Source: a virus. From it: a stretch of 53,440 nucleotides of DNA. Below are positions 25,574 to 36,418 of this stretch, one piece after another. The notes below the pieces were generated by a model. It was not told the DNA's origin, did no database searches, and saw only the letters and a program-made list of their open reading frames with translations. How positions within the stretch are numbered: the first letter of the stretch is position 1; each line of letters opens with the position of its first letter. Made by a program: the position numbers and the translations under genes. Location: positions 1-53,440 of the IMG/VR virus record IMGVR_UViG_3300030116_007267. The stretch is one strand, 5' to 3'.

Positions 25574-26635
25574 TTAATTTTCTTTATTTATTTCGTCTAT
25601 TTCAGCAGAAAAGATTTGCATCAAATTTTGAGAAGGGAACAATGGCTTACCATCATCAAAATATACTTTTTCCCACTGACCACGTTCTGGATTCCAAATA
25701 TGATTATGACCTCTCACAGCTTTAGCATTCGCATCCGCTTTGCGGTTGTATTTTCTAACTTCTGAAAAATGCAAATTTAATGTGATAGTCTTATCATCTT
25801 CACGATTATCCTCTGCACGAAGATCATTTTGAATATTTAATAATTGTGCTTGTTTTCGAGGATCTAACGGTTTACCTGTATCTGGATCTTTTTCACCTCT
25901 ACTTAATTCATCACCGATTGCCATACCCAACACAGCAGCATTTGTATACTCTTCTTCAAAATCAAATCCTAAAAACAAAACTGTTTCTTCAGGAGCACCA
26001 AAAAATATTTCCATCTTTTTATCATTAATTGTTCCAACTAATGATCTCAAAAGAGGCAAAAGTGTTTGCCTAAATAACGACCGATCAATACTAGGCCACT
26101 CTACAGACCATGTAATGGTTGGCGTCATGATTTGTAATGGTAACTGTGGCTGTTTAAACGATTGTGCAGTCCCACCATCATCACCTTGTACTTTAGCATT
26201 CGGTGCAGGAGACGTTAGCACTTGGCCCGATGCTCGGGCAGATATTTTATAAGGCTGGTCGTCTTCTTGTTCTTTCGTTTCATACTGAACAGTTACTTTA
26301 GCTAACGTATCGTACGTCTCCGCTGGAGCCCAATAATCCGCTGCAAAAAAATCAATTGGACGACCACCTGTAAATGCTACCGCTGAAATATTAGAGGTTT
26401 GCAATCGAGTCCCCGGCAAATAACGAGTCCTTCGAATTGCCTGTTTACCTTTAGTATTGTTTGTTGGCGGAAAAGATTCGTTAATAAAAGCAACCACATA
26501 ATTCCAAGGCATTACTAAAATTTCTGTAGCAGATGCCTTATTCTCTTCGACACTTAATGACAAATCCATAACACGATATGGAATGCCTGCTTTAGTTTTT
26601 AAACGCCATGTGGCTGGCAGTCGTGGATCAGTCAT
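25574..26635 (-). CDS. Putative distal tail protein
   Basis: A 353-residue beta-rich protein directly after the tape measure gene, joined by a TAATG overlap. The first product downstream of a tape measure in siphophages is usually the distal tail hub. ITWSVEWPSIDRSLFRQTLL in mid-sequence and KKMEIFFGAPEETVLFLGF later look like strands of a ring protein. No clear family motif can be named. A central acidic-charged segment (residues 270-300) may be a flexible loop. Confidence 0.5.
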   Translation of the reverse strand: MTDPRLPATWRLKTKAGIPYRVMDLSLSVEENKASATEILVMPWNYVVAFINESFPPTNNTKGKQAIRRTRYLPGTRLQTSNISAVAFTGGRPIDFFAADYWAPAETYDTLAKVTVQYETKEQEDDQPYKISARASGQVLTSPAPNAKVQGDDGGTAQSFKQPQLPLQIMTPTITWSVEWPSIDRSLFRQTLLPLLRSLVGTINDKKMEIFFGAPEETVLFLGFDFEEEYTNAAVLGMAIGDELSRGEKDPDTGKPLDPRKQAQLLNIQNDLRAEDNREDDKTITLNLHFSEVRKYNRKADANAKAVRGHNHIWNPERGQWEKVYFDDGKPLFPSQNLMQIFSAEIDEINKEN

Positions 26636-28191
26636 TATCTACTCTTTAAAGTTCCTGGTCCGCCGTTTCGATGCTGCTCTTCTTGGATATCCAATTGCCG
26701 TTGCTGCATCGCATTACCGGCTTCGAGCGCATTTAATTGTTTCTGATCAGTATCTTCACCAAACATCATGTCTTGTATAGAAGAAGCCAGTCCAAGTAAA
26801 TCAGTCGCTCCATAACTAAACCCCGATTTAGAGTCTTTTTTAATTTGAAGAGCTGGTGCAGCAGGTTTGTCAAATGCCTCTGGTGGTTTTGGTCTTGTCG
26901 CATCTGCAAAACCCTTCATAAAATTTCGTCTTTTTTCTTCAAATTCTCTTTTAGACCTTTTTAAATCAGAACTTTCAGAAGTCTTCATGCTAGCTTTCAT
27001 CTCTGCATATGCACCTTTGAGATATGCTGCATTTTCACCCGCTGATTTAGAGATACCGTTAAAGGCGTCTTCTGCATGATCAGTGATTTCTAATATCATC
27101 TGTCCAAACTCATTTGAAACATCGCCACCTGTAAAAGCGGCCCAAATCATCTTTCCTAAGCCTTTAAAAATACTAACAGCCGATTTACCAAAAAGAGCTA
27201 AATACTCTAGAAGGTTTTGTAATTGTTGTCTCATACCTAATTGAAGCGCTTTCATCGCAAACCATGCATATTGCGGAAAGTTTTTCCAAAAATTCACAGT
27301 CCAGTTTTCTAATTCATAGTATTTAAGTTTTACACCAGCCATAATTAAGTCCCATGTCATGGACCAATTATCAAGAACAAAACCTAACATTTTAACCCAA
27401 GGCAAAACAAAGTCTGTCAAAAAGGCTAACCACTTCTCTTTAATCTTGACAAACATTGGAATAAGTGCAGTACCCAATGCTTCTTTTGTGTCATTCAATT
27501 TGTTATTAACAATTTGCAATTGACCTGCTGGCGTATCTGCCATTGCTTGTGCTACACCATCTACCTGACCTTTAACAGCCGCTAACAAGATTTCTTGTGC
27601 TCCAAGCAAATTACCCTGTTCCATCAATAGCTGAATGCGTTCTTTATCATCTGGCAAAATGGAAACACCAACACGCTTTAACGCAGAAACACCTTGGATT
27701 GGGTCTTCTAACGCTTTACCCATTTGAATACTAGCCTGCTCAATACTACCAAATCCAGTATGAGCAAGATCTAAAGAAGCTTGTGTTGCATCTCTAAAAA
27801 CCTCTCCTTGGACATTTTTAAATGTGGCTAATTTTCCCATAGCATTTAGGATTTCTTCATCGCCAATAGTTGATGCACTTTGCATCTCATTAGCCATGTC
27901 TCCTAATTGTTCTGCTGAAAATCCTGCTGCATGGCCTGTCGCTTTGAGAACACCTTTTACTCGTGCCATTGCTTGAATTTGAGTTGTCGCTAACTCAATA
28001 GACTCGCCTGCTAATCGCCATCCACGAAAGGCTAAAGCGGTTAATCCCAAACCACCAGCCATCATTTTCATCTGACGTTTAGACCATTTAACAAGCTTTT
28101 TTAATCGCTTCTTAAAGTCTTCTGTTTTTTTACGTCCGTCTTTATCATCGATTTGAATTTTAACGGCTAAGTTTGCAATTTGTATTGCCAT
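26635..28191 (-). CDS. Tape measure protein
   Basis: The 518-residue, mostly helical protein has the phage tape-measure signature near the N-terminus: a basic start, GLGLTALAFRGW, FSAEQLGDMANEMQSASTIG, and LGKAL-like segments (MGKALEDPIQGVSALKRVGV) typical of lambda H/TP901-type proteins. Later DTPAGQLQIVNNKL continues the family pattern. A hydrophobic helical part lies near residues 240-370. At 518 residues it predicts a short tail (roughly 0.15 nm per residue gives about 78 nm). The upstream genes are the chaperones with a frameshift, the usual arrangement. Confidence 0.85.
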   Translation of the reverse strand: MAIQIANLAVKIQIDDKDGRKKTEDFKKRLKKLVKWSKRQMKMMAGGLGLTALAFRGWRLAGESIELATTQIQAMARVKGVLKATGHAAGFSAEQLGDMANEMQSASTIGDEEILNAMGKLATFKNVQGEVFRDATQASLDLAHTGFGSIEQASIQMGKALEDPIQGVSALKRVGVSILPDDKERIQLLMEQGNLLGAQEILLAAVKGQVDGVAQAMADTPAGQLQIVNNKLNDTKEALGTALIPMFVKIKEKWLAFLTDFVLPWVKMLGFVLDNWSMTWDLIMAGVKLKYYELENWTVNFWKNFPQYAWFAMKALQLGMRQQLQNLLEYLALFGKSAVSIFKGLGKMIWAAFTGGDVSNEFGQMILEITDHAEDAFNGISKSAGENAAYLKGAYAEMKASMKTSESSDLKRSKREFEEKRRNFMKGFADATRPKPPEAFDKPAAPALQIKKDSKSGFSYGATDLLGLASSIQDMMFGEDTDQKQLNALEAGNAMQQRQLDIQEEQHRNGGPGTLKSR

Positions 28192-28198
28192 AACTATC

Positions 28199-29181
28199 TC
28201 ACATTTTTGGGTTAATTAACCCATCAGCAGAAAACTTTTTAACTGTACCATCTGCCATACGCACTTTAATGTCATTATTTTCATCAGCTAATGTCACTGC
28301 CTGTGCCTGATTCATTTTGACAATGCGTTTGCCATCTTGGCGTTTTAACAACTCTGGTTCTGTTAAACGAAAGTAAATTTGGTAAGGAGTCATGTCACCA
28401 ACTTCTTGTATCGTATAACCACCACCTCCATTTATTGAACTCTCTACCATACATCGAATATGGTAAGGAGTTACTCCCGCTAATAAATCAGGAACATTAA
28501 CTACTAATTGGGCCGCATACGCTTCTGCCTGATCAGCTTCGCTGCGGCCTATTAATTTCCCGCATCTGCTGACGAAACATCTTCTACAACGCCAGCCGCT
28601 GTAATCAAATCATCTGGGGACCAATCAAGAATTTCTTGCTTAGTTACATCTGGATGATGTTTTTGTAAACCACAATGGATGATGCAAGCCATGCCTTCAT
28701 ATGTCGATGTGGCCCACCATGCATCATAAGGAACTCGAACTGCTTTTGGCATCTGTTTCGTTATTCGATGAACGTCTTGAGGCGTAACTTGCTCTCTATC
28801 TAATGCAGTAGATAAATATCTTCTTGCATCTTCGTCATCAACATCAAAAACATCAGTCCATTCAAGACTAACCAATAGCTCTTTAATCTTTTTACTAATG
28901 GGCACTTTTTCACAATCATAAGCAACACGCATAGGCAAATCAGTAACTTCTAATTTAGAAGCTTTCGTCATCGCTTCATGCATCATTGCGTCACCATTGG
29001 GCAGCAAATCCATGTTGTCTGCCCAAGTTTTGATGTAATTGCGTTTGTAATATTGCAAAGCTTCTTTTTGAATTTCAGTCAATTGTTTTAACGACAGAGG
29101 ACTGACGTTATATTCAGTCCCCTTTACTGTTAAAACTTGACCGGCACCCAAAGTAGTAGCCATTTCACTACTAACACCCAT
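28199..29181 (-). CDS. Frameshift product GT: tail assembly chaperone fusion
   Basis: The -1 product of the two overlapping chaperone frames. The first frame runs 29181-28552. A GGGAAAT heptamer at 28561-28555 lies with zero-frame codons G GGA AAT immediately before the TAA. Slipping one base back reads LIGRSEADQAEAYAAQLVVN and stays open to 28199, giving 118 extra residues (about 327 in all). In lambda-like phages a minor fraction of ribosomes makes such a GT protein that loads the tape measure for tail-tube assembly. The order chaperone, frameshift, tape measure matches. The slipping itself is predicted, not observed. Confidence 0.75.
28552..29181 (-). CDS. Tail assembly chaperone G-like protein
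   Basis: AAGGGGAGG eight bases before the ATG at 29181 favours the start MGVSSEMATT (209 aa) over the upstream TTG at 29199. The middle, LSLKQLTEIQKEALQYYKRN and the helices after it, resembles the first tail chaperone of siphophages. The product follows the tail tube gene and ends at TAA 28554-28552, next to the slippery site. It should bind tape measure protein during tail assembly. Confidence 0.7.
   Translation of the reverse strand: MGVSSEMATTLGAGQVLTVKGTEYNVSPLSLKQLTEIQKEALQYYKRNYIKTWADNMDLLPNGDAMMHEAMTKASKLEVTDLPMRVAYDCEKVPISKKIKELLVSLEWTDVFDVDDEDARRYLSTALDREQVTPQDVHRITKQMPKAVRVPYDAWWATSTYEGMACIIHCGLQKHHPDVTKQEILDWSPDDLITAAGVVEDVSSADAGN
28555..28561 (-). promoter_or_regulatory. -1 programmed frameshift heptamer GGGAAAT
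   Basis: In the chaperone frame the codons are GCG GGA AAT TAA. The heptamer GGGAAAT has the form X XXY YYZ, with zero-frame codons GGA and AAT re-pairing as GGG and AAA after a one-base slip. The stop directly follows, which favours pausing. The -1 frame is free of stops for 118 codons. A hairpin or Shine-Dalgarno stimulator further downstream cannot be judged by eye. Confidence 0.75.
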
Positions 29182-29208: not shown

Positions 29209-29649
29209 CTATGATTGAGACGAGTCCGTAATACTCTTAACTGGCGCGCCTGCTTGTCCTGGACGATAGTACATGCCATCAGCACCCCAAGAAGATTCAT
29301 AGCCAACAACTTCAGCACTATCAATGTCGATAGTCATGTTGAAATCATTACACAAAGCTCTTGGGAAATTGAAATACTTAGTACCATTAATCCACAACGT
29401 AACATCAGCAACTACACCAACATAAATCAAAGACCATGGTTCGCTTGCTGTGTCATACTTTCCTGCTGCATTGAACGTTGCATCTAGCCGACCACGCAAA
29501 CGATTCGTGTAACCAGCACTATCCGAATCGCCCCATTCACTACTAGTCGCTAAAGTAGGATTTACATCCCAAGATGTAATTCGTGCCACCGTAGTTGCAC
29601 CAACTTGGATTTCCCCACTTTTTCCCGTAATACAATTAACTGAAGACAT
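29209..29649 (-). CDS. Probable major tail tube protein
   Basis: The 146-residue beta-rich protein begins NCITGKSGEIQVGATTVARI, then SWDVNPTLATSSEWGDS and TFNAAGKYDTASEPW, the layout of a small siphophage tail tube subunit (first strand, capping loop, repeated strands). It lies immediately upstream of the tail chaperones and tape measure, where the tube gene normally sits. AGGAG nine bases before the ATG. Many copies should form the tail tube. Confidence 0.65.
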   Translation of the reverse strand: MSSVNCITGKSGEIQVGATTVARITSWDVNPTLATSSEWGDSDSAGYTNRLRGRLDATFNAAGKYDTASEPWSLIYVGVVADVTLWINGTKYFNFPRALCNDFNMTIDIDSAEVVGYESSWGADGMYYRPGQAGAPVKSITDSSQS

Positions 29650-29661
29650 TTATTTAAACTC

Positions 29662-30453
29662 CTATGGACCCGAAGTCGTCGAACTATACGACGACGATGA
29701 TTGTGAACTTGCAGAACTCGGTGAACTCGTAGAGGCTGTTGTGAAACTCTGTGAGCTTGAAGAATCAAGTTCAAGACTACTTGATGAAGTACTAGATACT
29801 GACGACGATGATGAAGTAGAACCTGTGGTGCTACTTCGTGACGAACTGGACGCAGACGAGGACGACGAACTCGAATTTGAAGACGATGAATCGTCTGCAT
29901 CATGGCGACCAACGACAATAATCGAATAGCCACAATCTGCGCCATTTGCCGTTAATTTGATTCTGTGATTACTTGCATCTGTAACCACAAATCCAGGATC
30001 TGCCACTGCCATCTTTGCAATCGCACCACCACCTGTAATACCACCACCTGTTGCTGCGGTATGCGTCCCCATTGGAGACCAGCCATTTGTAGAATCTGGC
30101 TCTACTTCTAATGTACCTGATGCTGTTCTAGCATTCGTATTAGCTACCGCTATATACACTATTTCAGCTAACGCCAATGTTTGACCTACAGGATCGCGAC
30201 CATCACCTGTACCACCATCGGTGCCAACAAAATCATAAAGATCAATAACTTCAGAAGCACCTGATGAAATTGATCCGTTGCTTTTGAAAAACACACGATC
30301 TGCTTCATTAACTTCAATGCCACTGGTCGGTTGATTTATACGATCCTGAGAAATAACCGCTTTACTAATATATTCGGCATTTGCACCAAACGTATTCTGT
30401 ACAGTAGTTGCCGCACTAATTGTTAATGTTGTGCTTTGTAAACTACGTGCCAT
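29662..30453 (-). CDS. Tail-region virion protein with serine-rich C-terminus
   Basis: The start is the ATG at 30453 (MARSLQSTT), overlapping the preceding stop as TAATG. The protein has 263 aa. The first 185 residues form a beta-rich domain with many Gly and Thr (VSISAATTVQN-like strands, GGGITGGGAIAK). The last about 75 residues are almost pure Ser/Thr with a few Ala, Leu, Asp (SSSSNSSSSSSSASSSSRSS). The tail is the smallest of the five such tracts in this window. It may be a tail decoration or head-tail completion protein. It lies directly upstream of the tube gene. Confidence 0.55.
   Translation of the reverse strand: MARSLQSTTLTISAATTVQNTFGANAEYISKAVISQDRINQPTSGIEVNEADRVFFKSNGSISSGASEVIDLYDFVGTDGGTGDGRDPVGQTLALAEIVYIAVANTNARTASGTLEVEPDSTNGWSPMGTHTAATGGGITGGGAIAKMAVADPGFVVTDASNHRIKLTANGADCGYSIIVVGRHDADDSSSSNSSSSSSSASSSSRSSTTGSTSSSSSVSSTSSSSLELDSSSSQSFTTASTSSPSSASSQSSSSYSSTTSGP
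29665..29895 (-). repeat. Serine-coding low-complexity tract (shortest)
   Basis: The C-terminal about 75 codons of the gene at 29662-30453 are mostly Ser with Thr, Ala and a few Asp/Leu. Codon choice varies as in the other tracts. Confidence 0.8.
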
Positions 30454-30944
30454 TATGACAATTCCCATCTAGGATTTTTAAACAGAGCATCAACACGAAC
30501 CGTATATTCTATAGCCCACATATACACACGTTGGTCCATCCTAGAACCTTGCGAAAAAGTATGCATTGTGCATATGTGTTGGCCCCCATCTATATTTAAT
30601 TCCAATTCGGTTTCAGTAGTATGCCCACCAAACACTTTTGAAACTTCTTCATTTAATAAATATGCAACTTCTTTAGCCGACTTTGAGCCTACTTGCTCTG
30701 CCCAAATTTCAAATCGAATAGGCACATCAACAGTTGCATGATGTTCATAAATATCGTGCCCAGACATCCGAGTAATAACAGTACTTTGCTCAATATTAAC
30801 TGTGCAAAATGGAAATGGATGTTCTGGATTAGCTACTGTGTCAAAAAAATATGGCGACTTGCCCCCATACTGCGAAAACGCATCGTCTAATTCACCATCA
30901 ACCCATGCTTGTGCAATCGCTTTATGTAATTGAGGTTCAAACAT
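30453..30944 (-). CDS. Putative tail terminator/completion protein
   Basis: In the 163-residue protein the N-terminal helix FEPQLHKAIAQAWVDGELDD is followed by FPFCTVNIEQSTV and strands such as RVYMWAIEYTVRVDALFKNP. That layout, and the position after the gp10-like gene and before the tube gene, fit the tail terminator of siphophages (DUF3168-like), which caps the tube. Similarity by eye is modest. Confidence 0.5.
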   Translation of the reverse strand: MFEPQLHKAIAQAWVDGELDDAFSQYGGKSPYFFDTVANPEHPFPFCTVNIEQSTVITRMSGHDIYEHHATVDVPIRFEIWAEQVGSKSAKEVAYLLNEEVSKVFGGHTTETELELNIDGGQHICTMHTFSQGSRMDQRVYMWAIEYTVRVDALFKNPRWELS

Positions 30945-35596: not shown

Positions 35597-36418
35597 CTAA
35601 GAGCTTGATGAACTAGTACTCTGCGAACTCATCGAACTTGTACTCGACGAACTTGAATTCGAGCTAGTTGAGATAGAACTGCTACTAGCTGACAAAGAAC
35701 TACTTGAAGACAAAGATGACGAGCTTTGCGACGAACGCGAAGAGCTTTGTGATGAACTAACAGAACTAGACTCTGAACTAGTAGAAATTGAGCTAGTAGA
35801 TGTCGATATTGAACTACTCGATGATGTGCTACTAGTCGAACTCTCCGAACTAGAGCTGAATGATGTAAGCGAACTTGCAGACATCGAACTACTAGATAAC
35901 GAACTGAACGAACTTTCAGATGATGACGACGACGAGTTGCTAGACGAACTTGACGACGAAACTGAAGAGGATGACGACGAACTATCAGATGACGAGCTTT
36001 GCGAACTAGACGACGAATTCGAAGAAGTCGAAATCGAACTTGACGACGAACTGTGCGAACTAGTTGAGATAGAGGACGAAGACAACGAGCTTTGTGAACT
36101 TTCGCTCATATCTTCCATCGAAAGTACACTAAGCCCATTACTAGATGGACCAGGAAAAAGCAATTCACCTGTAGAAAATAATAAAATTCTAGGCTCGCTT
36201 ACAGCGCCGCCAGAATGCGTATCAGTTACGATCAATTGATATATTTCATTAGTATTTAATGTTTGAGTCGTAACTTCAGTGCTACCGGATAAATTCGTAC
36301 TCACACTATTTGCTGGCATGGTATCATCACCAGCACGAGGCAAACGTTTAATAACTACGTTACGTTGTGATAACGAATTAGCCGGTCCAAGATATATAGT
36401 GACTTGTCGTTGTGCCAT
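35597..36418 (-). CDS. Virion protein with serine-rich C-terminus
   Basis: The 273-residue protein has about 100 residues of a beta-rich domain (QVTIYLGPANSLSQRNVVIKR and IYQLIVTDTHSGG), then a C-terminal tract of about 170 residues that is nearly all serine with some Thr, Leu, Glu, Gln, Ile and Met (for example SSSISTSSHSSSSSSISTS). GGAATATAAAAC precedes the ATG at 36418. The head-region position points to a decoration or minor head protein with a long flexible, possibly glycosylated, arm. Confidence 0.55.
   Translation of the reverse strand: MAQRQVTIYLGPANSLSQRNVVIKRLPRAGDDTMPANSVSTNLSGSTEVTTQTLNTNEIYQLIVTDTHSGGAVSEPRILLFSTGELLFPGPSSNGLSVLSMEDMSESSQSSLSSSSISTSSHSSSSSSISTSSNSSSSSQSSSSDSSSSSSSVSSSSSSSNSSSSSSESSFSSLSSSSMSASSLTSFSSSSESSTSSTSSSSSISTSTSSISTSSESSSVSSSQSSSRSSQSSSSLSSSSSLSASSSSISTSSNSSSSSTSSMSSQSTSSSSS
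35600..36110 (-). repeat. Serine-coding low-complexity tract
   Basis: The C-terminal about 170 codons of the gene at 35597-36418 are mainly Ser. SISTSS blocks, also seen in the other tracts, recur here. Confidence 0.85.

Follow-up and report, generated by a model that had tools for sequence, protein, structure and literature searches.

The question raised by this locus is whether two overlapping frames ahead of a tail tape measure gene are joined by a programmed -1 ribosomal frameshift, as an earlier note on the bare sequence had proposed, and whether they encode a pair of tail assembly chaperones. The window (the whole stretch of DNA analysed, 53,440 bases) is one virus record, IMGVR_UViG_3300030116_007267, of an uncultivated long-tailed phage, and the features of the junction are collected in Table 1. 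The first gene, G, starts at the ATG at 29181, with AGGGGAGG 5' of it, and ends on the minus strand as ...GCG GGA AAT TAA TAG. The second, T, is open in the -1 frame from 28611 to 28202 and closes with a TGA at 28201-28199, with 7 bases between this stop and the ATG of the tape measure gene (28191). The two frames overlap by about 18 codons and the predicted G-T fusion has 209+118 = 327 aa. On re-check all the coordinates of the earlier note hold: the heptamer fits the zero-frame codon register, the TAA follows it immediately, and the -1 frame stays open past the slip until shortly before the tape measure gene. By our own estimate, the chance of an in-register X XXY YYZ in an 18-codon overlap is about 7% per sequence, which leaves the window, taken by itself, no more than suggestive.

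Table 1. Features at the G/T junction of the window and in its surroundings
Feature	Coordinates	Strand	Remarks
Zero-frame gene G	28552..29181	-	209 aa, proposed tail assembly chaperone
-1 frame open region T	28199..28611	-	118 codons post-slip, 28555-28202
Slippery heptamer GGGAAAT	28555..28561 (28561-28555)	-	zero-frame register G GGA AAT
Zero-frame TAA stop	28552..28554	-	directly after the heptamer; then TAG 28551-28549
Stem 5' arm GGCCGCAGCG	28540..28549	-	starts 5 nt past the heptamer
Stem 3' arm CGUAUGCGGCC	28511..28521	-	10 bp, one bulged A
Tail tape measure gene	26635..28191	-	518 aa; PHROG 27166, E 2.8e-33
Conserved 146-aa protein upstream of G	29209..29649	-	candidate major tail tube protein, by position

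Relatives were reached by scanning IMG/VR contigs with the capsid, portal and tube proteins. The capsid and tube alignments served as scan anchors, the 6-row alignments of G and T being too divergent; an iterated G profile drew in unrelated frames, so G matches were counted only when adjoining T matches. The set comprises 59 distinct junctions with pairwise protein identities of 25-72% (median 36%), where the window is represented by its near-twin L002. This contig is 99.3% identical to the window over the region, with identical heptamer and stops; it differs at one position in the -1 part and at six in G, and given so few changes the comparison carries little information. G and T are recognisable by sequence in distant contigs. 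In the first five divergent relatives T occupies the -1 frame, with G GGA AAT inside the overlap, and all T family matches (126 of 126, representing the 59 distinct junctions) are -1 relative to G; among all contigs fetched, none of the 59 junctions has an in-frame G-T fusion. The heptamer is GGGAAAT in 52 of the 59, AAAAAAT in six and GGAAAAT in one (L102), a degenerate form where re-pairing is possible at the A-site part only. The pattern X XXA AAT is present in 58 junctions and A AAT in all 59. The zero-frame stop lies one codon past the heptamer in 56 junctions; exceptions are the window and L002, where it follows directly, and L069 and L082, where it is further downstream. An in-register heptamer is found within the overlap, and both the site and the frame relation are conserved among divergent relatives. 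Its presence in the overlap of 58 of 59 distinct junctions is, as comparative evidence, decisive for a frameshift signal. On these grounds the junction is a selected -1 ribosomal frameshift, and the claim that such a shift joins the two genes is upheld.

The gene order tail tube candidate, G, T and tape measure is conserved across the 59 divergent junctions and agrees with the siphophage G/GT order and location to which the earlier note had pointed. G and T lie between a tube gene assigned from its position and a tape measure gene assigned by its PHROG match. The tape measure protein was also compared with Pfam TMP_2 (E 2e-6, just under the cut-off), and the 146-aa candidate tube protein had no Pfam or PHROG family match. 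Searches with G and T, both singly and for individual members, gave no significant Pfam, PHROG or PDB sequence match, and tblastn against isolate phages, run with the fusion as well as with the G, tube and capsid proteins, gave essentially no matches. The G family has 53 aligned members and a confident structure model (AlphaFold2 pLDDT 93), for which a fold search against PDB gave no match. Against viral models it showed weak similarity to small phage proteins (best E 0.0067); weak matches include a 152-aa Phobos tail protein (probability 0.82) and a 164-aa DLP_5 protein (0.72), with E about 0.6, which from length and product name we infer to be Pho30 and DLP05_016. The T model was of low confidence and its fold search gave no usable match. 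Position and the weak fold match of the model, in place of sequence homology, support a G/GT chaperone role. It is very unlikely that the frameshift is real and G and T nevertheless do another tail-related job: such a reading draws on the lack of sequence homology to known chaperones, which leaves position and weak fold similarity as the whole case, but a -1 fusion between candidate tube and tape measure genes is the hallmark of G/GT (PMC5009743).

Other features were observed around the locus and in its relatives. Directly behind T in L064, L089, L092, L106, L133, L134 and L144 lies an ORF that at its start resembles a GIY-YIG homing endonuclease (e.g. MGCVYLVTNRINGRQYVGKT); these ORFs, recognised by eye in translations, occupy the position of the window's tape measure gene. 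Two proteins of the window, at 29662-30468 (-) and 35597-36418 (-), have long serine-rich tails with SSSSSS runs, and relatives of the former occupy the corresponding position across the phage group. In the bacterial genome collection a single, distant capsid relative turned up, L113 (PABE01000114.1), a Porticoccaceae MAG contig with 32% identity, possibly a hint of host range or else a contaminating phage.

The first ATG, GTG or TTG in the -1 frame of the window is at 28450, 35 codons past the junction. No Shine-Dalgarno-like sequence was identified before this ATG, and the earlier statement that the 83-residue frame at 28199-28450 lacks a ribosome site is borne out. An efficient start with a ribosome site for the downstream frame, named beforehand as an outcome that would speak against frameshifting, was not found in the window. 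Start codon positions in T are not conserved among members, and in 9 of them, including the near-twin of the window, the first ATG, GTG or TTG is at least 35 codons inside. The T protein (51 aligned members) is conserved from the junction onwards, with WIG... and then GLLxGITPxHIR. Since it is conserved from its first residues and has no conserved starts, the segment upstream of the starts is translated, which requires the shift. T could otherwise be a separate gene with an internal start, such as the ATG present at 28450, at which ribosomes re-initiate once they have passed the G stop; the heptamer would then be incidental. Translational coupling is indeed frequent among phage genes, but protein conservation beginning upstream of any start, the missing Shine-Dalgarno and the unconserved starts all oppose this reading, which leaves heptamer and hairpin unexplained and is even less probable than a different function for the two proteins.

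Folding of the RNA downstream of the heptamer, which the earlier note had put forward as a check, yielded a stem-loop that is conserved in relatives. In individual folds most members have a GC-rich stem, with a median of 11 bp, starting 5-7 nt past the heptamer, and the distance to the 3' arm varies among them. When 60-nt segments were folded along G and T, a z-score of -1.97 +/- 0.22 was obtained only in the segment directly behind the heptamer, and values elsewhere were about -0.2. Real pairing was separated from shared composition by testing every 5' arm against the downstream regions of all relatives. Own-arm pairing had a mean of -17.5 kcal/mol against -12.3 when permuted (permutation sd 0.35), the signal was confined to arms starting 0-9 nt past the heptamer, and the window's own-arm pairing was in the top 2% compared with the arms of relatives. 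Pair types vary on both sides at most stem positions (covariation). An upstream SD-like stimulator was not found in the members examined, a loop-downstream pseudoknot was not convincing (own -8.8 vs swapped -7.8, median rank 0.39) and there is no Rfam family at the site. Judged by its conservation, the downstream stem is a predicted stimulator of the frameshift. Transcriptional slippage, where RNA polymerase adds or drops bases and a fraction of the mRNAs carries the fused frame, has an A run (AAAAAAT) to act on in six relatives, but 52 of 59 carry GGGAAAT with runs of three at most, and the strict codon register and the spaced downstream hairpin are ribosomal signatures; it is hardly to be credited. 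That one ordinary frame was split by an indel from sequencing or assembly, or by decay of the gene, has next to no probability: a single metagenomic contig may always carry an indel, but the reading is refuted by the comparison of junctions, since an identical -1 relation recurs at one position in 59 contigs of at most 72% identity, none with an in-frame fusion, which excludes independent sequencing errors.

The A-site codon is AAU in all 59 junctions and never AAG, AAA or AAC. In E. coli the best A-site codons for shifting are AAG and AAA, A_AAU is among the tetramers that are barely or not shift-prone, and heptamers with a pyrimidine as last base (A_AAU, A_AAC) shift poorly; G_GG.A_AA.C is termed low-efficiency, and insertion sequences nevertheless use low-efficiency motifs (PMC4066793). 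The exclusive use of AAU is notable because A_AAU hardly shifts in E. coli, and the shift efficiency here is not predictable since pyrimidine-ending heptamers are poor in that organism. In the -1 frame AAA is followed by the codon TGG in 45 junctions, TAC in 8, TAT in 5 and TTA in 1. The U is not ascribable to slip selection alone, since it is also the first base of this conserved W/Y codon, and the conserved T could come from a protein constraint for a W/Y codon starting with T after AAA. That the whole phage lineage relies on tRNA-Asn slippage on AAU, either with unusually shift-prone tRNA-Asn or ribosomes in the hosts or with the long stem compensating a weak heptamer, is possible and rather doubtful. 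No tRNA gene able to modulate the slip was identified in the 53,440-base window, and no report of GGGAAAT/GGGAAAU as a phage slip site was found in the literature searched.

A programmed -1 ribosomal frameshift making gpG and gpGT is, with high confidence, the reading we prefer. The frames, the heptamer and the hairpin, together with their conservation and covariation, can be read directly from the sequences. Most ribosomes would terminate at the TAA and give gpG (209 aa). A minority would be stalled by the hairpin 5 nt downstream of the heptamer, where the P-site tRNA would exchange its pairing with GGA for GGG and the A-site tRNA its pairing with AAU for AAA; these ribosomes would continue in the -1 frame to give gpGT (327 aa). 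The predicted junction peptide is ...DVSSADAGNLIGR, with N then L under tandem slippage after AAU decoding. We further infer production of the fusion, a G:GT ratio and chaperone roles: by analogy with lambda the ratio would be fixed, G would coat the tape measure protein, and recruitment of the tail tube protein would fall to the T part.

With these results the known range of the G/GT frameshift takes in a sizeable set of uncultivated phages, with chaperones that go unrecognised by family libraries. The 59 divergent sites form a comparative set, and the strict AAU with the covarying stem offers a natural series for measuring what a weak heptamer and a hairpin each contribute to a protein ratio. 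Gene callers are liable to miss T or to predict a false 83-residue gene.

The G/GT arrangement is widespread among long-tailed phages, and in lambda, low-level -1 shifting yields G and GT at about 30:1 (PMC5009743). As in lambda, two overlapping frames precede the tape measure gene here and the -1 slip is near the end of the first (PMC5009743). No sequence similarity to the lambda pair was found, and in contrast to lambda the stop is directly or one codon after the heptamer and a downstream stem is conserved in the present phage group. The slip heptamer of lambda is GGGAAAG, with AAG as A-site codon where AAU is used here. In Phobos (Pho30/Pho31) and Stenotrophomonas phage DLP_5 (gp16/gp17) a gene likewise lies directly ahead of the tape measure. 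Pho30 and DLP_5 gp16 (DLP05_016), identified by protein length, have weak fold similarity to G and are each overlapped by a -1 frame running towards the tape measure, but no significant profile similarity was obtained, and no frameshift is annotated there. The unannotated -1 ORFs, which overlap the end of the gene in question, lie at 26340-26678 of L186 (Phobos, MN478374) and at 10868-11194 of L187 (DLP_5, MG189906). Phobos has GGGAAAG in register at 26352, and an unannotated G/GT frameshift is suggested for this phage. The -1 cassettes of the IS3 family and dnaX combine a heptamer and a downstream structure as here (PMC4066793), but in other genes and mostly with AAG or AAA at the A site. A frameshift of the lambda type is in itself well known; what is new here is its occurrence in another phage group, where a hairpin is conserved after the slip site.
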